NCBI RefSeq assembly: GCF_000812965.1
Contig: NZ_JSYN01000015.1
Span: 1 to 64,000, forward strand
Source: Pedobacter kyungheensis
Lineage (GTDB): Bacteria; Bacteroidota; Bacteroidia; Sphingobacteriales; Sphingobacteriaceae
Direction: 5' to 3'
DNA: 64,000 nucleotides
Each line of letters starts with the position of its first letter. Position 1 is the stretch's first letter. The notes under the pieces are model-generated. The model ran no database searches and was not told where the DNA came from. It was given only the letters and a program-made list of their open reading frames with translations. A program made the position numbers and the translations under genes. Of the stretch, positions 55,550-63,348 are shown piece after piece.

Positions 55550-56059
55550 TTATGTCTTCAGGTGCTGCTGCGAGGTCAGTTTAGCTACTTCGTAACCCTT
55601 AGCCTTACACCTGGCAACAATTTCATCATAAGTTTGCTTTGGCATATGCTGATTTCGGCTCATGATGAATAAAAATTTGTGATCGGGATGGCCAACCACT
55701 ACGTACGAGTAATCATCAGCTAGCTCAATAATCCAGTAATCAACCTTTATGGGCCAAATAAACTGTGCCTGCAGTTCGCCATTATCTTTTTCTGTAGAAG
55801 GAAACATTTTTGAATTCCGCGAATAAACCTTTTCATCACCTGGCTTTTTATAGGTGGTTAATACATCGTAATAGCCAGCTTTGTTCAGGGTGTACTTTGT
55901 AGTGGTTTCGCGGCTGCCCTTATCGAAAATGGTCGGAATGGAATATAATGAATACCAGGTTCCGGCATACTTTTTCAAATCCACTTTGTTTACAGGTGTA
56001 TTTTTTTCTGCAGGTAAATAACTGAGTAATACAAGCAATAAGGCACAAATTGTTTTCAT
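55550..56059 (-). CDS. Lipocalin-family exported protein
   Basis: 169 aa with a signal peptide (MKTICALLLVLLSYLPAEK). It has the lipocalin first motif KKYAGTWYSLYSIPTIFDKGSRETTTKYTL (GxW), and the later FIWPIKVDYWIIELADDYSYVVVGHPDHKFLFIMSR resembling Blc. The family binds lipids or other hydrophobic molecules in the envelope. It is transcribed independently of the operon upstream, which ends 50 nt away. Confidence 0.88.
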   Translation of the reverse strand: MKTICALLLVLLSYLPAEKNTPVNKVDLKKYAGTWYSLYSIPTIFDKGSRETTTKYTLNKAGYYDVLTTYKKPGDEKVYSRNSKMFPSTEKDNGELQAQFIWPIKVDYWIIELADDYSYVVVGHPDHKFLFIMSRNQHMPKQTYDEIVARCKAKGYEVAKLTSQQHLKT

Positions 56060-56109: not shown

Positions 56110-57174
56110 TTAGAACTTATTTTTAGCCTTCCAGATAAAACCATCCAGTACATAATGTGTAGCCTGTGGTAATGCCAATAGCGGAACGAGAAGCGAAAGG
56201 AGCTCGCTGCTGGTAATTTGTGGTAAAGTTGAAAATGGTTTAAATACAGCCTGGTGTTCTTTCCATACCAGTCCATCCCATAAACCTTCTTCCAGGTAGG
56301 CAAATAATATCAGAATTAACAGAAAGTAAAAGATTCCCCATTTGCCAAAGCTGAGGGCCATAATCTTACTTTTAACAGGGTTTCGGTCTAACTTCTTTTT
56401 TTCGAAAAACCAGATCAGGGCCATGTATGGGATACCATGCGAAACTACATTGAGTGTGGTAAAAGCCATGTCGCCATTAAAATAAACAATGCCAAAGTAC
56501 CAGGACAGGAATGTTCCGGCTACAAGTAAGTTACGCGGGATATTTATCCACCTTTGTTTAATAACGACCAGTATTTCTTTTACAAGATACAGGGCAATGA
56601 TAGCGATATATATGAGCGCTGAAATTTTTAATAAAGCATCGTTTTTGAAAGAAAAGAAATCGCCTGCTATAAACCAGTTAAAATGCCTTGCCGTGCTAAG
56701 GTGCCAGAAAAGCAGTGGATATAAGGTTGCGGTATAAATAGCCACTTTATCGATAAGCTGCCCGGCACGCGAAGCCTGCTCATTGCGCGAATACAAGCGC
56801 ATAAAGCCGTATTGCTGCCTGATGAAATGGTAAACGGCCAGGTAAGCCAGGATTCTCCAAAACCACAGGGCATCAAAATGGTAAACCATTACTCCTGCAA
56901 TATAACAGGCAAGCGGAATGGCAATGAGCAAAGTATATTGTTTTTTAAAATTACCAGGATTAAAATAGGTGCGGTACAAAGTGCTGTACACATGTGCAAC
57001 ATCGATAAAAACAATTAAAAATACCCAATAGGCCAAAGGAACACCCGCTGCATTTTGAAATTGTGACGGAAAGAGCAAAACGAGCAACAGCGCAAAAAAC
57101 GGAGGCGAAAGGATGAAAACAACATCACTTATACGCGAATTTAACCAGGGCTGATTTGGATTAGGATGTGACAT
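56110..57174 (-). CDS. Multi-pass membrane protein with conserved-looking intramembrane His motifs
   Basis: 354 aa, eight to nine predicted helices. Embedded polar motifs are striking: DVAHVYSTLYRTY (about residues 54-66), YHFIRQQYGFMRLY (about 105), NVVSHGIPYMALIWF (about 240) and LPQATHYVLDGFIWK at the C-terminus. His/Arg/Tyr pairs inside membrane helices suggest a metal-dependent or intramembrane enzyme, such as a desaturase-, Brp/Blh- or hydroxylase-like fold, but I recognise no family. The start at 57174 overlaps the FAD gene's end by 14 nt. Last gene of the polyamine-related operon. Confidence 0.8.
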   Translation of the reverse strand: MSHPNPNQPWLNSRISDVVFILSPPFFALLLVLLFPSQFQNAAGVPLAYWVFLIVFIDVAHVYSTLYRTYFNPGNFKKQYTLLIAIPLACYIAGVMVYHFDALWFWRILAYLAVYHFIRQQYGFMRLYSRNEQASRAGQLIDKVAIYTATLYPLLFWHLSTARHFNWFIAGDFFSFKNDALLKISALIYIAIIALYLVKEILVVIKQRWINIPRNLLVAGTFLSWYFGIVYFNGDMAFTTLNVVSHGIPYMALIWFFEKKKLDRNPVKSKIMALSFGKWGIFYFLLILILFAYLEEGLWDGLVWKEHQAVFKPFSTLPQITSSELLSLLVPLLALPQATHYVLDGFIWKAKNKF

Positions 57175-58822
57175 TGAGTACTTGTTTTGCTGCGTTGATG
57201 CCCTGATGAAAAGCTTCTTCAAAAATAGATACCCCACTTAAATCGCTATGGGCAAAGAAAATTTTATCATCAACAGGCAGTTTTGCTTTTGCCAGGTTTT
57301 CACTCCAGATAAAATCTTTTGCAGGTGCAATCATGCCATGCCCCCAAACCCAGAAATCGATATTTTCAATGGCTTTGCTAATACCAGGGTGTATAATTTC
57401 CAGTTCTGGAATGACGATATCCAGCCACTGTTCGTAATTTCTGGAATAAGCGGCCAAACGGGCAACTGCAGGCTCAAAATCGCAAAGCGGGAGATAATAG
57501 GTAATTACCTTTTTATCTTCAGAAAGGTTTAAATGTTGTTGCGCCGAGTTTACGTAACCAACTGATGGTGTATTGTAAGCCACATTATCCCAGCAAAGGC
57601 TTATTCCTTTCGATTCTGGTAATTGGTTGATAGTAATATTTGCAATAAGCCATGGCGAATAATTAAAAGCTTTATAATCGATATTGCGGTTAAAATTTTT
57701 CAGCAAGCGGTTGTTTACGAACTGCGGCGCGCATAAAATGATTTTTTCGGCCTCAATATTTTCAGTAAGTTGTGTTTTGGTGTTAAATACGGTTACCAAC
57801 GTATTGCCATTAGGCATAGGTTTCAAATCGTAGCACAGGCTTGAGGTTTTAATGTGATCTCTGAGCGGGCCTGCCAATTGTTTCATGATCCAGCCATTGC
57901 CTTCAGGCCAGGTTAAAATAGCGTTCTGCTCTGCATTGGCAGCTTTTCCCCTGCGTGAAGCGAAATAATGCAAGCCTGCCCAGGCCGATATATGTTTAAT
58001 TTTTTGACCGTAATCGTCTTTACTGGCATAATTTAAGTACCAGAGCAGATATTTGGAACGATAGCCCTTTTCTTCCAGATAAGCCTCAAAAGTTATTTTA
58101 TCCAGCCTTCTGTAGTTTTCATCAGCAGAAGAAGAACTTAAAGGTATATTGAATAAAAATTTACCATCGTTACCTCTGGTGTTTTTAAGCTGATCAACTT
58201 CTGATAAAAAACGCCTGATCTCTTTTTTATCGGCAACGGGCACACCAAAATCCGGAATTAAACCTTCCTGCCATTCGCCATTTATTAATAATCTTTCTTC
58301 AGGATCGAAAGTTAAATAGTAATCGTTGTAGTAGGGTAACTGCCCCTCAAAATGCGTGATGACGTCAATTTCCTTTAAAAAATCAATCAATAAAGCATCG
58401 TCATTATTGGCTATGGTGATATAATGAGCGCCCAAGGGATATGAAGCTATTTTGTTGCTGCCATAATAAGAGTTTCCGCCCGTATGGTTTTCTAGCTCCA
58501 GAATTTCGAAATCAGTTTCACCATTCTTTTTTAACCATCTCCCTGCCGACAAGCCGGAAATGCCACTGCCAACAATGAGTGTTTTTACTTTTCTGGTACT
58601 TTTCGCCGCGGGTAATTTTAGTTTATCGCGTAAAATATGTCCTGCTTTGGCATCAGGGCCCTGTAAGGTTCCCGGGATGTTATAGCGATTTGACCGCATT
58701 TTTTTATAACAACCATTTAAAAAGATGCCACCGGTAATTAATCCGATCCGCAACAAAAAAGAGCGACGCTTTAAATAAGCCGATAACTCATCCTTATAAA
58801 ACGTTTGCCCACTCATCTTCAA
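57161..58822 (-). CDS. Tat-signal lipoprotein FAD-dependent oxidoreductase (amine-oxidase-like)
   Basis: 553 aa. The N-terminus YLKRRSFLLRIGLITGGIFLNGCYKK combines a twin-arginine motif (RR at about 19-20) with a lipobox (LNGC, Cys about 38), predicting export of a folded FAD enzyme and lipid anchoring. The dinucleotide-binding motif is VGSGISGLSAGRWLKKN (about 84-100), followed by FEILELENHTGGNSYYG, typical of the NAD(P)/FAD amine oxidase class. Its place between a spermidine-synthase-like gene and a membrane protein suggests oxidation of an amine or polyamine. It overlaps the upstream gene by 29 nt. Confidence 0.82.
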   Translation of the reverse strand: MKMSGQTFYKDELSAYLKRRSFLLRIGLITGGIFLNGCYKKMRSNRYNIPGTLQGPDAKAGHILRDKLKLPAAKSTRKVKTLIVGSGISGLSAGRWLKKNGETDFEILELENHTGGNSYYGSNKIASYPLGAHYITIANNDDALLIDFLKEIDVITHFEGQLPYYNDYYLTFDPEERLLINGEWQEGLIPDFGVPVADKKEIRRFLSEVDQLKNTRGNDGKFLFNIPLSSSSADENYRRLDKITFEAYLEEKGYRSKYLLWYLNYASKDDYGQKIKHISAWAGLHYFASRRGKAANAEQNAILTWPEGNGWIMKQLAGPLRDHIKTSSLCYDLKPMPNGNTLVTVFNTKTQLTENIEAEKIILCAPQFVNNRLLKNFNRNIDYKAFNYSPWLIANITINQLPESKGISLCWDNVAYNTPSVGYVNSAQQHLNLSEDKKVITYYLPLCDFEPAVARLAAYSRNYEQWLDIVIPELEIIHPGISKAIENIDFWVWGHGMIAPAKDFIWSENLAKAKLPVDDKIFFAHSDLSGVSIFEEAFHQGINAAKQVLNVTS

Positions 58823-60305
58823 AATACTTGACCAAAATTTGGTTATTAAGCTTATTTACATCAGTTTCTACCTTGCCCATATCTTTCGGAAAGTAGAGCA
58901 TTAAATCTAAACTTTCTTTCGAAATGAATTTCAGACCCGGTAAATATTGCTGCGGTTTTTTATATACATTATCGGGTTCGGTAGCCATAATGTAGCCCCA
59001 CTCGCCAAATGATGGTACATAATTGTGATAGGGAATGGTTTTTAAGCCAACACTTTCTAAAGTTTTGTTTACAGTCCAGAAAGATTTTGGTGCAACGAAA
59101 GGCGAGGTAGACTGGATTACCATTAAGCCTTTTGGGGCAAGAATACCTTTCACCAACTTGTAAAATGCATTGGTGTAGAGTTTTCCGACAGCATAATTGG
59201 ATGGATCGGGAAAATCGATCACAATAAAATCGAATTTCTTCCGCTGTGCTTTTACCCAGCTAAATGCATCAGCATTAATTACCTTAACCTTTGGCGATAA
59301 GAGGGCGTTTTTATTGAGCCCAAGCAAAATCTTATTCGATTGGAACAGGCCTGTCATTCCTTTATCCAAATCAACCAGGGTTACCGAATCAACATTTGGA
59401 TATTTTAAAATCTCCCTAACAGCAAGTCCATCGCCACCTCCCATTACCAAAACGTGTTTGGCAAAAGGTAAAGCCTGTAATCCGGGGTGCACTAAAGCTT
59501 CGTGATAGCGGTATTCATCATCAGAACTGAATTGCAGGTTTCCGTTCAGGAAAAGCCGCAAAACCTTATTTTTTTTGGTTAAAATAATCCGTTGGTAAGG
59601 CGTACTTTTCGAGTAGATAATGGTATCGCTATAAGTCTGGCTCTCAGAAAAACTGGTTATTTTATCGGCATAAATAAAACCCGCAAGCAGGGCGATGATA
59701 CTGATGAAAGATGCACCCTGCAGATACTTTGAAGCCCTGATTTCCTTTTTAAAGTTCAAACAAACAATTAAGGCTACTGCAACGTTGAGCATCCCAAACA
59801 AATAGGCTGTTTTTACCAAACCCAGATGCGGAATGAGCAGTAATGGGAAAATTAAAGAGGCGAGTAAGGCTCCAATATAATCGAAGGTAAAAACTTTAGA
59901 AACAAGGTCTTTAAATTCATAGCGATCTTTAAGGATACGCATAAGTAAAGGGATTTCTAAACCAACAAGAATACCGGTTAAGCTTACAAAACCATACAGC
60001 ACAATCCTGAAAGAGGCAATACTTTCGAAAACGAGGAACAAAACAGTTGAACTGAAACCGCCGACCAGCCCAACCAGAATTTCGATTTGTATAAACCACG
60101 AAAGGATATTCTTCTCAAAATATTTGGATACCCAGGAGCCAATACCCATCGAGAAAAGGTAAACCCCAATTATAGTCGAAAATTGGGTAACCGAATCGCC
60201 AAGCAGGTAGCTGGCCAGGGTGCCGGCAATTAACTCGTAAATTAAGCCACAGGTTGCAACAACAAAAACTGAAATTAATAAAAGCGCAGGTAACTTTTTG
60301 TTCAT
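58794..60305 (-). CDS. Membrane-fused spermidine synthase-like aminopropyltransferase
   Basis: 503 aa. About seven membrane helices occupy residues 1-215. The soluble part has the aminopropyltransferase signature: LNGNLQFSSDDEYRYHEALVHPGL (about 254-276), GGGDGLAVREIL (289-300), TLVDLDKG, and FIVIDFPDPSNYAVG with the two catalytic Asp residues (about 364 and 367). This is a membrane form related to SpeE, expected to move the aminopropyl group of decarboxylated AdoMet to an amine. It begins 1 nt after the DUF350 stop codon. The true acceptor is not known. Confidence 0.87.
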   Translation of the reverse strand: MNKKLPALLLISVFVVATCGLIYELIAGTLASYLLGDSVTQFSTIIGVYLFSMGIGSWVSKYFEKNILSWFIQIEILVGLVGGFSSTVLFLVFESIASFRIVLYGFVSLTGILVGLEIPLLMRILKDRYEFKDLVSKVFTFDYIGALLASLIFPLLLIPHLGLVKTAYLFGMLNVAVALIVCLNFKKEIRASKYLQGASFISIIALLAGFIYADKITSFSESQTYSDTIIYSKSTPYQRIILTKKNKVLRLFLNGNLQFSSDDEYRYHEALVHPGLQALPFAKHVLVMGGGDGLAVREILKYPNVDSVTLVDLDKGMTGLFQSNKILLGLNKNALLSPKVKVINADAFSWVKAQRKKFDFIVIDFPDPSNYAVGKLYTNAFYKLVKGILAPKGLMVIQSTSPFVAPKSFWTVNKTLESVGLKTIPYHNYVPSFGEWGYIMATEPDNVYKKPQQYLPGLKFISKESLDLMLYFPKDMGKVETDVNKLNNQILVKYFEDEWANVL

Positions 60306-60306
60306 G

Positions 60307-60531
60307 CTAACTGTGAATGGCTGAGCTTATAATAATTGCAATGGCAATAATAAAGGCTGCAAAAACAATAGCTAAGGCTAAATTTTGTTTTTCGAGTATT
60401 TCTTTCCAAAGATTTTCTGGCGTAATTTTTTCTATAATCCAGAATGCGATAAAAAGTACAAAAATACCCAGGATAGAGTAAACTAATGATGCAATAATGT
60501 ACTTGATGTTAATTAGTTCGTTTAAGCTCAT
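60307..60531 (-). CDS. DUF350 small membrane protein
   Basis: 74 aa with two helices (about 13-34 and 50-72: YSILGIFVLFIAFWIIEKITPENLW, LALAIVFAAFIIAIAIIISSA). The family DUF350 (E. coli YjfL is a member) often accompanies PspA- or polyamine-related genes; its function is unknown. Here it lies within the tight operon between the 57-aa peptide gene and the membrane spermidine-synthase-like gene, with spacings of 6 and 1 nt. Confidence 0.87.
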   Translation of the reverse strand: MSLNELINIKYIIASLVYSILGIFVLFIAFWIIEKITPENLWKEILEKQNLALAIVFAAFIIAIAIIISSAIHS

Positions 60532-60537
60532 AATCTT

Positions 60538-60711
60538 TTATTTATGGTAAAATCTGTTTACATGGCCTCCGTGACGGCTGGATCCATTGAATTCGGTGTT
60601 TTTTTCTACATTATCCTGGTAATAGGCATGCCCGCGCAGGCCGCTGTAACCGTAAAAGCCCAAAATAACGAGTAATACAATGAGGTAATATTTAATTGGT
60701 TTCAAATCCAT
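60538..60711 (-). CDS. 57-aa single-pass membrane peptide in the polyamine-related operon
   Basis: This small gene is easily missed. ATG at 60711 is the base next to the stop codon of the DUF4178 gene (60712-60714), and its stop TAA (60538-60540) is 6 nt before the DUF350 start. It encodes one hydrophobic helix (YYLIVLLVILGFYGY, about 8-22) and a polar, His/Asn-rich tail (GSSRHGGHVNRFYHK at the end). Position, perfect packing between two real genes and no overlap with them strongly support a real gene. Function unknown. Confidence 0.82.
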   Translation of the reverse strand: MDLKPIKYYLIVLLVILGFYGYSGLRGHAYYQDNVEKNTEFNGSSRHGGHVNRFYHK

Positions 60712-62028
60712 TTAATCTCCGTTTACAAAGGGTGAAAAATCGCTGTTGTTCCATCTTCTTTTCTCATAATTGCGCATTAAATACCAGCAAATGGCCGGGA
60801 AGATGCAAAGCAGCAGTATGGTAATCAGGGTATTGCGGATCATGCTCACATTAGTAGTAGCCCTGATATACAGGTTGTTCCGGTAAATATCTCCCGATGA
60901 TGGATATACATTTAAGTGGTACTTGCCTTTCGGTATGTCTGATAAAAGAACCGATTCTCTGGTTGAACCTTCCGACCAGCTTTCGCCATCTTCTACACCA
61001 TGGTAATATTCTATACCCTTGCTCACTTCCCAGGTTCGGTTATCGGCCTCATTAACCAGTACAATGGTAGTTTCCAGCCAGTTGTTGTCAACACCAGAAG
61101 CAATATCGAATTCAATATTGGATGATTCATCTTCAATAACAAATGAAGGCGTAATGAAAGATTTGAAAGCATCAGCACCGGCCTTGGCATCGTAGGTAAT
61201 TAAAAAATCGTCGTTTATTAATTCTTTTTCAGGTTTTACAGCACCAAAAAGCAAATGCAAAAGCAACACCGCAACTATAGCTATGCCGGTTATTTTTAAA
61301 GAAGACATCCACCTGTCGTAAGCTTTAGATGGCTGATTGGCACCAATACCAATCTGTTCCGGAAGACTGCTTTTATCAAGATTAAATGCGGTAGCAATTT
61401 CATCCTTGCTCAGGTATTCGCCAATGTAGTAATTGGTAAGGTTTTGCGATTTATTAATCACCTCTTTTACAACCATAAATGGCGGTGCGATATATTCTGT
61501 AGCCTTAACCTTTTCATTTACCACATTCCAATCCACTTCGCCAAGCATGGCTGTTACTTTTGGACTGTACCTGTTAAAAAGCTTGTACTCTACCTCTTTG
61601 TAGTCTACACTTACACCGTACGATGTAGGTTGTTTATAATCGGGCAGAAAATCTTCGCCTGCGATGAAATTCCAATGGCCATTAAATTCGGCTAAGGTAA
61701 CATAGCCCTTATCGTGGCTGGTTAAAATATATTCTCTCCAGCAGTATATTGTTTCTGCTTCCTTTTTTTCGAGGTACGCAATTACTTTTAAATCGACACC
61801 GTGGATATTGGTTGTTGAGCCAAGTTTTAAAACCGGAGCATTTTTGGGCTTTTCTAATTTTCTGTTCAGCCTTGTTTCTGCCCGGGTAAAAATGTGTAAA
61901 TACGAGAAACAAGAAGGGCAAACCACGTATTCGCTTTTGGCCGGTTCGTACAGGACAATATTTTGCCTGCATACCGAACAAGCTATTGTTTCTGACAGTT
62001 TGAAAAATGATTGAACTGAATTTTCCAT
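60712..62028 (-). CDS. DUF4178 protein with zinc ribbon and two membrane helices
   Basis: 438 aa. A zinc ribbon at the N-terminus has Cys17 and Cys20 (CSVC) and Cys37 and Cys40 (CPSC). The DUF4178 part follows from about 50 to 200 (LKVIAYLEKKEAETIYCWREYILTSHDKGYVTLAEFNGHWNFI). Helices near 243-262 and 397-420 flank a periplasmic region. It overlaps the end of the SpeD-like gene by 1 nt (TAATG) and is followed without gap by the 57-aa gene. DUF4178 genes commonly co-occur with SpeD, DUF350 and polyamine enzymes; molecular role unknown. Confidence 0.85.
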   Translation of the reverse strand: MENSVQSFFKLSETIACSVCRQNIVLYEPAKSEYVVCPSCFSYLHIFTRAETRLNRKLEKPKNAPVLKLGSTTNIHGVDLKVIAYLEKKEAETIYCWREYILTSHDKGYVTLAEFNGHWNFIAGEDFLPDYKQPTSYGVSVDYKEVEYKLFNRYSPKVTAMLGEVDWNVVNEKVKATEYIAPPFMVVKEVINKSQNLTNYYIGEYLSKDEIATAFNLDKSSLPEQIGIGANQPSKAYDRWMSSLKITGIAIVAVLLLHLLFGAVKPEKELINDDFLITYDAKAGADAFKSFITPSFVIEDESSNIEFDIASGVDNNWLETTIVLVNEADNRTWEVSKGIEYYHGVEDGESWSEGSTRESVLLSDIPKGKYHLNVYPSSGDIYRNNLYIRATTNVSMIRNTLITILLLCIFPAICWYLMRNYEKRRWNNSDFSPFVNGD

Positions 62029-62381
62029 TAACGTACAATTTCAGTTTTCTGCATTTCTTTACCTTCAAAAAAGTGCAATACAGCGTCATAAATATCCCTT
62101 ACCTTTTGGGTATTGTCTTTCTGGTAATTGGATAGAAAAATATCGAAGGTAGCCAGTTTAAACTCCGGCCAGGTATGGATAGATAGATGCGATTCGGTTA
62201 AGCAGATAACGGCCGTAAAACCTCCGTTAGGGAAGTCGTGATAAACTTCGCCAACTTTTTCAAGGTTTTGATTGGCAATTAATCCGTTAAAAAGTGCTTT
62301 ACAAGCCTGAAAAGAAGAGAGTTGTTCCGTTTTTTCAGAAGAAAATTCAGCTAATATGTGTAATCCCGGTTTATAGGTCAT
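62028..62381 (-). CDS. SpeD-like pyruvoyl-dependent decarboxylase (AdoMetDC family)
   Basis: 117 aa from the ATG at 62381 (the longer frame begins at a TTG inside the -7 box). It has the SpeD signature TESHLSIHTWPE with the self-cleavage Glu63-Ser64 pair (which makes the pyruvoyl group) and His69. Aligned to T. maritima SpeD (Ser63, His68, Cys83), the Cys83 position is Ser84 in FDIFLSNYQ, so the proton-donor Cys is absent. It may have a changed substrate or rate. It is the first gene of the operon. Confidence 0.85.
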   Translation of the reverse strand: MTYKPGLHILAEFSSEKTEQLSSFQACKALFNGLIANQNLEKVGEVYHDFPNGGFTAVICLTESHLSIHTWPEFKLATFDIFLSNYQKDNTQKVRDIYDAVLHFFEGKEMQKTEIVR

Positions 62382-62399
62382 TGAGCGTTTAGTATCTTT

Positions 62400-62407
62400 C
62401 AAAATTA
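62400..62407 (-). promoter_or_regulatory. Promoter -7 box of the polyamine-related operon
   Basis: Reads TAATTTTG on the minus strand, an exact TAnnTTTG, 18 nt before the ATG at 62381. It is the only clear promoter before the whole seven-gene run. Confidence 0.6.
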
Positions 62408-62450: not shown

Positions 62451-62846
62451 TCAGATATTTTTTTCTGCTATAAAATGATCTTCAACATCTTCTTCAAGCG
62501 GGATATAAATTCTTTCCCATTCGTTGCCATCTACAATTTCCCAGGTGTGCCCAACGCCAAGGGTATCGTTTGCAATTAAGATAATGCCTGGTTCAATGAT
62601 AAAAGTTTCACCATTGCTTACCGTAAAACGAAGTTTACCTTTCAAGGTAAGTACATATTGCCGGCGTGGGGCAGGATGGGGGATTTTTTCCAGCGTTGAT
62701 ACATCGGTTTGTGCAAAGAAATGACTGGCTTTGATGTGCTGGCGGATAGGGATTTTGCCTGTTTCAAATGAACATTGTTCGTTTGCTGTATTAATTAAGC
62801 GAATGGCTTTAAGGTAATTGCGGGTGTCGGCTATTTCGGTATTCAT
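62451..62846 (-). CDS. Cupin-like domain protein
   Basis: 131 aa. An all-beta sequence with features of a small cupin: ASHFFAQTDVSTLEKIPHPAPRRQYVLTLKGKLRFTVSNGETFIIEPGIILIANDTLGVGHTWEIVDG, with a few possible metal ligands (HPAPRRQY, Glu/His). No signal peptide. Start at the ATG of 62846; an upstream frame begins with TTG. It is separate from the operon by 69 nt and transcribed in the same direction; function unknown. Confidence 0.75.
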   Translation of the reverse strand: MNTEIADTRNYLKAIRLINTANEQCSFETGKIPIRQHIKASHFFAQTDVSTLEKIPHPAPRRQYVLTLKGKLRFTVSNGETFIIEPGIILIANDTLGVGHTWEIVDGNEWERIYIPLEEDVEDHFIAEKNI

Positions 62847-62868
62847 CTGCAAATAAAAGGTATTGATT

Positions 62869-63348
62869 TTAAAATTTTAATTCAGTTTGTCCACGTTGCA
62901 TTACTTCACTTTCGTGTTGTAGCAACCATTTTTTACGCCACAGGCCGCCTGCATACCCCACCAGCTTGCCATTACTGCCAATAACCCTGTGGCAAGGTAC
63001 TACAATGGCAATGTTGTTTTTGCCATTTGCAGCGGCTATTGCGCGGATAGCGAGTGGCTGATGTGCCGAGAATTTAGCATAGGATGTGGTTTCGCCATAG
63101 GGAATAGCCAATAAATTTTGCCAAACGCCCTGCTGAAATTCCGTTCCTTTCTGTTTCATCGGGAAATCGAAATGCTGTAATTTGCCATTAAAATAATCGG
63201 TTAATTGTTGGGCAACCTTTAACGTGAGCGGATTTTCGGTTAATCCTGTAATAGCTGTCTCGGCAAAAGTTACGGCATGTACAAATTCATCATCGGCAAG
63301 GATGGTAATCTGGCCAACAGGCGATGCAATAACTGATGCGTAGTTCAT
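62869..63348 (-). CDS. ogt: Methylated-DNA-[protein]-cysteine methyltransferase (Ogt type)
   Basis: 159 aa. Removes alkyl groups from O6-alkylguanine in DNA, in one suicidal step. The active-site block IVVPCHRVIGSNGKLVGYAGGLWRKKWLLQHE and the helix-turn-helix region FQQGVWQNLLAIPYGETTSYAKFSAHQPLAIRAIAAANGKN are complete. No AdaA or methylation-regulator domain is fused, so this is an Ogt-like enzyme. Ends 22 nt before the cupin gene start. Confidence 0.95.
   Translation of the reverse strand: MNYASVIASPVGQITILADDEFVHAVTFAETAITGLTENPLTLKVAQQLTDYFNGKLQHFDFPMKQKGTEFQQGVWQNLLAIPYGETTSYAKFSAHQPLAIRAIAAANGKNNIAIVVPCHRVIGSNGKLVGYAGGLWRKKWLLQHESEVMQRGQTELKF

Follow-up and report, generated by a model that had tools for sequence, protein, structure and literature searches.

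A conserved C-terminal lysine on a co-encoded envelope peptide as candidate acceptor of a membrane-fused aminopropyltransferase

The minus strand of a 64,000-nucleotide (nt) stretch of Pedobacter kyungheensis DNA (NZ_JSYN01000015.1; the whole stretch is referred to here as the window) carries an operon at 56110–62402. Its seven genes encode, in order, an AdoMet decarboxylase-family protein (SpeD), a DUF4178 protein, a peptide of 57 amino acids (aa), a DUF350 membrane protein, a SpeE aminopropyltransferase fused to a seven-transmembrane (7-TM) domain, a FAD protein with the amine-oxidase fold and a His-rich membrane protein (membrane protein 7, MP7). We propose, with a probability of about one half, that this operon is an envelope protein-modification system in which SpeE would aminopropylate the lysine at the end of the peptide’s tail and the FAD enzyme would oxidize the product. 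This chemistry is inferred from a gene set, a gene order, a C-terminal lysine, charge patterns and a FAD fold, all of which are observed. The association of SpeD, membrane SpeE, DUF350 and DUF4178 is already known, with its substrate open, from the accessible part of PMC11237479; new here are a candidate substrate defined by a single residue, its contrast with ligase systems, and a conserved FAD–MP7 module.

Judged from its sequence, the 57-aa peptide (60538–60711, minus strand) is the most informative signal in the operon and the best candidate for the missing acceptor. The initial annotation gave it no role, yet its C-terminal Lys is kept across the family. It has a single transmembrane (TM) segment and ends ...NRFYHK, closed by the His-Lys (HK) codons at 60541–60546, of which the Lys is, from sequence and conservation, the residue proposed to be modified. 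Short open reading frames (ORFs) in the gap between DUF4178 and DUF350 likewise consist of a single hydrophobic stretch and a variable tail ending in HK. All 93 loci with both DUF4178 and speE (92 of them distinct, L002 and L035 being from one genome; the SpeE proteins of L030, L031 and L032 are nearly identical) encode a tail with a C-terminal Lys, mostly Gly/Ser-rich. This is a separate ORF ending in HK in 90 of the 93; in L013 and L078, the DUF4178 protein itself carries the tail, beyond a hydrophobic stretch, and closes with ...SHK and ...HHK, respectively; in L016, a 76-aa ORF overlapping a neighbor ends in GK. Among the 90 HK peptides, positions −1 and −2 have zero entropy, as follows from the selection of the set, Tyr occupies position −3 in 65, and entropy is about 3 bits from position −5 outwards. 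The mean net charge is +1.4 before the TM segment and −0.9 after it, with 74 of the 90 agreeing with an N-in orientation and 8 tied, and 79 reach the hydropathy cut-off. These charge patterns suggest an N-in/C-out topology that would place the tail outside the membrane.

This signal lies in the protein, because codons, stops and spacing all vary. In the 144 ORFs that end in HK or GK upstream of speE, Lys is encoded by AAA (124) or AAG (20) and His by CAT (63) or CAC (46), all three stop codons are used, and the distance to the next start takes 58 different values. This variation rules out a DNA-level artefact such as the ribosome-binding site of DUF350, which is also contradicted by the persistence of HK in loci that lack DUF350.

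The association was cast as a fixed rule: an ORF ending in HK or GK lies at most 3 kb upstream of speE. In the discovery set, this holds for 97 of 100 speE copies (opposite strand, 8; downstream, 4) and fails for L015, L017 and L106, the last with its HK peptide further away. Thirty-five loci were obtained after the rule had been fixed, and 34 speE copies were counted in them. Three copies were set aside, those of L153 and L159 because the contig edge cuts speE and that of L154 because it sits too close to a contig start; GK ORFs are seen in both L154 and L159. In this later set, the rule holds for 24 of 34 copies, versus 2 on the opposite strand and 2 downstream. It is followed by 23 of the 25 copies that have DUF350 or DUF4178 upstream, failing in L140 and in L129, where the genes are fragmented, and by one of the nine that lack them (L150). 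The two sets share no identical SpeE, the closest pair being L044 and L126 (95% over the last 300 residues). Three of eight plasmid loci follow the rule; among those that fail, the Tritonibacter locus ends in RVK, that of Alteromonas has its GK end downstream, and that of Novosphingobium resinovorum ends in THK and was missed owing to the start of the speE ORF. A shape-based tail filter, which is too strict and drops known HK peptides, passes Lys in 105 of 143 sequence windows, with Glu next at 20 and the opposite strand at 9.

The conserved Lys is found on several carriers, namely the TM peptide, a lipoprotein-like protein and fusions with DUF4178. In L018–L022, which mostly have a PspA-type layout, a lipoprotein-like protein of 240–254 aa that ends in GK stands at the place of the tail and is probably of the Ctha_1186 type. 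In L157, DUF4178 (E 1.8e-22) is fused to a lipoprotein-like part with the end GFGK, and L155 and L158 resemble this fusion, judged by both ends. DUF4178 is predicted to be intracellular (PMC11237479, in the part accessible), so in these fusions a membrane segment lies between DUF4178 on one side and the tail on the other. L146, L147 and L152 encode a second protein of 267–288 aa with a membrane segment near its end, finishing ...YFGK, and may have two acceptors. L148 and L151 carry two speE copies in opposite orientation, one with a lipoprotein-like GK tail and DUF350 and the other with MP7 and FAD genes, as if two successive transfers were needed.

A different end is seen where the enzyme is a ligase. 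Escherichia coli ygiB and yjfM adjoin ygiC and yjfC, annotated in RefSeq as peptide-spermidine ligases, and their tails end in MGG and WGG. In operons with ligases of the glutathionylspermidine (GSP)-synthase type, the tail ends in Gly in 8 of 10 cases, in Ser in 2 and in Lys in none. These ten are ygiB, yjfM, six annotated plasmid loci (Rhizobium, Vibrio, Sulfitobacter, Asticcacaulis, Paraburkholderia and Pseudarthrobacter), a Methylobacterium ORF called by position, and L145. The eight plasmid loci examined were picked by hand among 60 of 147 matches, Azospirillum being excluded as it has no annotated DUF1190 neighbor. In L145 (4999–9250), speE and speD face, on the opposite strand, a lipoprotein-like protein ending in SSGG beside a ligase that matches GSP_synth (E 1.9e-66). 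None of the seven operon proteins of the window matches the GSP_synth profile (PF03738). We tentatively read these ends as an ‘end code’, Lys for an aminopropyltransferase and Gly/Ser for a peptide-spermidine ligase, such that a tail Lys aminopropylated outside the membrane and then oxidized would represent a new class of peptide modification.

SpeE (503 aa; 58794–60305, minus strand) matches PF01564 (E 7.8e-37) and NCBIfam PRK03612 (E 7.8e-204; 677.9 bits, cut-off 472). Over 141 aligned sequences (the window counted twice), the GGGDG motif at 289–293, D364, D367 and others are at least 95% conserved. Alignment to solved enzymes, the closest being thermospermine synthase and a Thermus aminopropyltransferase, shows that the motifs for the decarboxylated AdoMet (dcAdoMet) site and the catalytic Asp are kept. 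Lys and Arg cluster at the N-terminus and at residues 61–66, 121–137 and 185–194, and are scarce at 31–40 and 151–160; seven hydrophobic segments are discerned by reading, and five, some of them merged, by an automatic cut-off. These charge patterns suggest that SpeE is N-in/C-out, and with an internal N-terminus and seven segments the catalytic domain would lie outside the membrane. The acidic residues E24, E75, E117 and D142 of the membrane part are at least 95% conserved and might fit a path for a cation.

SpeD-family enzymes decarboxylate AdoMet to yield an aminopropyl donor, so the wording of the initial annotation, that an amine is decarboxylated, does not suit the family. Some homologues do decarboxylate arginine or ornithine, according to the accessible portion of PMC10407285. 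The speD ORF (62028–62402, minus strand) runs from a TTG, with ATG 62381 as the likelier start. Its product matches PF02675 (E 1.6e-21; 77.1 bits, cut-off 25), falls below the cut-off of NCBIfam TIGR03330 (71 versus 75.65), and has the processing Ser in its ESH motif (ESHLSIHTWPE, aligned with Thermotoga maritima SpeD and 2iii). The DUF350 protein (74 aa; 60307–60531, minus strand) matches its profile with E 1.4e-15, and it and its orthologues have a conserved C-terminus, mostly ...HG or ...HS. The DUF4178 protein (60712–62028, minus strand) has a Cys-rich, zinc-ribbon-like N-terminus and membrane segments; its profile does not match the window protein and does match the L005 orthologue (E 3.8e-14).

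The FAD protein (57161–58822, minus strand) carries a twin-arginine (Tat) signal followed by a Cys and is a probable lipoprotein; it matches PF01593 (E 3.7e-06), and both profile and model show the amine-oxidase fold and the FAD-binding motif. Its model (pLDDT 87.5) finds monoamine oxidase (MAO) A by Foldseek (E 5.1e-23) and superimposes on putrescine oxidase (2yg7) with a VIA-align Z of 28.8 and an r.m.s.d. of 3.5 over 418 aligned residues. Renalase, phytoene desaturase and protoporphyrinogen oxidase come next (Z 27–28), so the fold alone leaves the substrate unfixed, and the protein is best described as an exported putative amine oxidase. It shares the fold with spermidine dehydrogenase (SpdH), MAO and putrescine oxidase, the SpdH match extending from the N-terminal region on, but identity is at most 15–17% in the best rows. 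A weak similarity to PigB spans 66 residues.

MP7 (56110–57174, minus strand; the ORF extends to GTG 57237) has about ten helices and matches no Pfam family up to E 1. Its residues His61, His116, His246, His340, Asp58 and Asp344 do not vary across an alignment of 41 sequences (the window and 40 of the 80 loci described below) and are mostly retained in distant relatives. The MP7 model (pLDDT 89.8) has no usable match in the PDB: the best Foldseek E is 0.25, and the best VIA-align Z is 6.9 (r.m.s.d. 5.1, 173 aligned), in the chance range for helical bundles. This does not make it a new fold. A di-haem cytochrome or another known metalloprotein was considered for MP7; these searches against PDB folds offered no usable match. 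The transporter or second enzyme first suggested is a possible role. Relatives with 22–32% identity and the same His/Asp positions (L023–L029) occur in other Bacteroidota outside any speE operon; the neighbors of five of these, judged by eye and without a profile scan, include none that is polyamine-like.

The operon is conserved as a unit. A search of genome contigs yielded at least 454 relatives of MP7, of which the best 80 were kept as named loci; since they were picked via MP7, the frequency of speE–FAD–MP7 applies to MP7-bearing genomes. The order DUF4178, speE, FAD, MP7 is kept in 78 of the 80, the exceptions being L095, with MP7 near the contig start, and L101, and 54 have the strict order speD–DUF4178–DUF350–speE–FAD–MP7. 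Median gaps are 1 nt (speD/DUF4178), 0 nt (DUF350/speE), −23 nt (speE/FAD) and −4 nt (FAD/MP7). The gene order is thus conserved beyond chance; the outcome that would have refuted the initial annotation, an order confined to this strain, was not seen, and its reading as one co-conserved unit is supported. Matches to the full membrane SpeE (E 3.6e-102 or better) occur in 22 of 296 genomes from the phylum, and strong MP7 matches (E 1.1e-88 or better) in 9, in all 9 at most 2 kb from SpeE; a class-wide draw gives a SpeE match at E 1e-60 in 40 of 395 genomes. The named loci are mostly from Bacteroidota (Pedobacter, Mucilaginibacter, Chitinophaga, Dyadobacter, Hymenobacter, Spirosoma and Flavobacterium in record titles), with a few metagenome-assembled genomes from other phyla (Leptospiraceae, Verrucomicrobia, Cyanobacteria/Obscuribacterales/Melainabacteria and FCPU426 in their titles); among the matches listed, the closest named MP7 relative is from Pedobacter soli (97% identity). 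Elsewhere, L009 and L013 end at FAD, in L004 speD comes after FAD, and the L014 stretch contains no FAD or MP7 gene.

DUF350 is unmatched in 11 of the 80 named loci (L040, L041, L042, L046, L048, L049, L056, L058, L067, L094 and L106), all of which retain the HK peptide, DUF4178, speE, FAD and MP7. In ten of them, the space from DUF4178 to speE is only 175–301 nt (4517 nt in L106), leaving no room for the gene, so DUF350 seems dispensable. The P. kyungheensis genome (6.36 Mb) has one SpeE, one SpeD and one DUF350. It has no PspA match (PF04012, E 0.001), and no carboxynorspermidine decarboxylase clears the cut-off; lysA is present, as is an arginine-decarboxylase-like gene (L124) that scores below the equivalog cut-offs.

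Putrescine is the usual acceptor of aminopropyl groups, and the side chain of lysine, a four-carbon amine, resembles its end. In the proposed sequence of events, SpeD would make dcAdoMet in the cytoplasm, the donor would cross the membrane, perhaps by way of SpeE’s 7-TM half, and the external SpeE domain would add aminopropyl groups to the amine on the side chain of the C-terminal Lys, the flexible tail of the single-TM peptide allowing it to reach the catalytic domain. DUF4178 may present or read the tail, as gene order and fusions suggest, and DUF350 would be accessory, given its absence from 11 named loci. The exported FAD protein would then oxidize the aminopropyl-lysine, and electrons might pass to MP7 or the quinone pool, or MP7 might act on the product; this oxidation and electron step is the weakest of the scheme. 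Several results argue for this scheme: the Lys end is kept through changes of carrier and loss of DUF350 while the rest of the tail varies, none of the ten ligase tails ends in Lys, the SpeE domain, the tail and the Tat-exported FAD enzyme are all placed outside, SpeE keeps its dcAdoMet-site and Asp motifs in a genome with no other SpeE or SpeD, and putrescine oxidase and MAO are the best fits to the FAD model. The idea first put forward for this operon, that the exported FAD enzyme oxidizes what has been aminopropylated at the membrane, fits its anatomy.

Several observations weigh against lysine aminopropylation. The tail is not alone in having a conserved end, since the last residues of SpeD (R in 79 of 87) and DUF350 (G, S or H in 83 of 87) are conserved too. 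In SpeD, Ser replaces the active-site Cys of the T. maritima enzyme in the window and in 78 of 113 loci; 29 loci have Cys, among them Flavobacterium humi L107 and Verrucomicrobia L099, and 6 are unread. The Cys is required for decarboxylation, as stated in the accessible part of PMC10407285, so the activity of SpeD is not certain. An external SpeE domain needs exported dcAdoMet, for which a transporter is hypothetical, the role given to MP7 is unsupported, and the arginine-decarboxylase-like gene leaves free putrescine possible as the acceptor. One Vibrio ligase operon encodes a 119-aa hypothetical protein that ends in GK, without a Gly/Ser tail. The later set of loci comes from the same class or phylum and is therefore independent of the discovery of the rule and not of ancestry. 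An HK/GK tail is missing upstream of speE in L015, L017, L138, L139, L142, L143, L145 and L156, for the second speE copies of L148 and L151, in L140 and L129 despite DUF350/DUF4178, and in the Burkholderia plasmid loci L113 and L117, which have speE–FAD. The tail thus tracks the combination of DUF4178 and SpeE rather than just SpeE, and DUF4178 could be its partner. Four of these loci (L138, L139, L142 and L143) form a speE subgroup that lacks both DUF350 and the tail and has a neighbor of 715–747 aa; a Pfam scan, made for L138 only, identifies it there as an M48 peptidase.

That the tail tracks DUF4178 as well as SpeE, that the ends of SpeD and DUF350 are likewise conserved, and that SpeE is membrane-bound would all suit a different arrangement, in which SpeE aminopropylates a lipid or small amine and the tail is a structural or docking subunit whose Lys only binds SpeE, DUF4178 or the FAD protein. 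We consider this rather unlikely, as a docking end would not be expected to remain Lys across carriers while the rest of the tail drifts, or to become Gly/Ser in ligase systems. Ordinary spermidine biosynthesis was rejected as the principal explanation in view of the exported oxidase and the fixed-end peptide, in line with the initial annotation’s view that the set is not a classical spermidine pathway; the clusters reportedly described by Li et al. in 2019 also speak against it. Also improbable is a reading along the lines of the initial annotation, in which a small amine receives its aminopropyl group at the membrane and is oxidized in the periplasm to an exported metabolite, with the peptide incidental or an assembly factor. 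The similarity of SpeE to thermospermine synthase and the Thermus aminopropyltransferase, the putrescine oxidase/MAO fold of the FAD protein and the arginine-decarboxylase-like gene would fit such a route, but the peptide is present in 93 of 93 loci with DUF4178 and speE, and fusion proteins of this kind reportedly did not restore spermidine. Least probable, and by our estimate very much so, is a sensory or regulatory tail in an envelope-stress system, its unmodified Lys being read while the polyamine enzymes adjust membrane charge: PspA-linked relatives are described as envelope-stress systems in the accessible part of PMC11237479, yet the tail is kept in a host genome without a PspA match.

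Lysine aminopropylation would have parallels in several known systems. Amine chains are carried on protein lysine side chains in silaffins (as polyamines) and in deoxyhypusine, in other proteins and places, whereas here the site inferred is a C-terminal Lys in the bacterial envelope. Clusters of SpeD, a membrane-fused (MFS-type) spermidine synthase and DUF350, in which no spermidine was made and the acceptor was unknown, are reportedly the subject of the 2019 work of Li et al.; they share the core of SpeD, membrane SpeE and DUF350 with the window operon, which differs in having DUF4178, the Lys-tail peptide, the Tat-exported FAD enzyme, MP7 and a named candidate acceptor. That work is cited in PMC11237479 and PMC11107197, as far as their accessible parts go. 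In the available part of Ravi et al. 2024 (PMC11237479), PspA/CesT-Tir operons combine a SpeE with a 7-TM domain, DUF350, DUF4178 and a ‘novel lipoprotein (Ctha_1186)’; the first three are common to the window operon, which lies in a genome without PspA and adds FAD and MP7, and the same part makes no mention of a C-terminal lysine on the lipoprotein. The E. coli peptide-spermidine ligases YgiC and YjfC (Pederick et al. 2023, mentioned in the accessible parts of PMC12568646, PMC10948618 and PMC12270671), with YgiB, YjfM and YjfL, likewise place a DUF350-linked (yjf operon) envelope protein with a Ser/Gly-rich tail beside a polyamine enzyme, but use an ATP-grasp ligase and Gly/Ser ends where the window has an aminopropyltransferase and HK. 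Literature searches for an aminopropylated C-terminal lysine or lipoprotein lysine found nothing relevant among titles and the openings of abstracts, with bioRxiv and most subscription papers outside their reach, and prior art is possible.

Membrane-fused spermidine synthases occur widely among bacteria, and which acceptor they use is left open in the accessible part of PMC11237479 and reportedly by Li et al.; a conserved Lys on a co-encoded envelope tail makes the question testable. If the proposal is correct, a known enzyme family without an explained role would gain its missing substrate, and both a new protein modification and an extracytoplasmic use of dcAdoMet would follow. The system would then share with E. 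coli yjfL–yjfM–yjfC and ygiB–ygiC the logic of tagging the free end of envelope proteins with polyamines. The conserved FAD gene and MP7 would form an oxidation module that is not described in the accessible parts of PMC11237479 and the other literature consulted.

The ORF listing of the window confirms seven genes at their annotated places, all on the minus strand. The speD and DUF4178 genes overlap by 1 nt, and the following spacings are 0 (DUF4178/57-aa peptide), +6 (peptide/DUF350), +1 (DUF350/speE), −29 (speE/FAD; −23 counted from the first ATG) and −14 nt (FAD/MP7, from ATG 57174; −77 from the upstream GTG), so that the range of −29 to +6 nt first given holds if MP7 starts at its ATG. 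The −7 box noted upstream (TAATTTTG, a match to the Bacteroidota −7 consensus) is indeed present at 62400–62407 on the minus strand. As a sign of a promoter, it fails: the window contains 94 copies of TAnnTTTG, with 92.4 expected (s.d. 11.5), two others besides this one lie within the operon on the same strand (60459 and 57220), and a box at chance frequency is no promoter evidence, so it was dropped as support for the operon. Scans of the window for sigma-70 sites (19 versus 23.6 in shuffles) and terminators (5 versus 8.4) gave no enrichment. The operon is flanked by lipocalin (Blc-like), cupin and O6-alkylguanine-DNA methyltransferase-like genes (55550–56059 and 62451–63348); besides the window’s own locus, these flanking genes recur, among the loci compared, only in L002, from the same genus.

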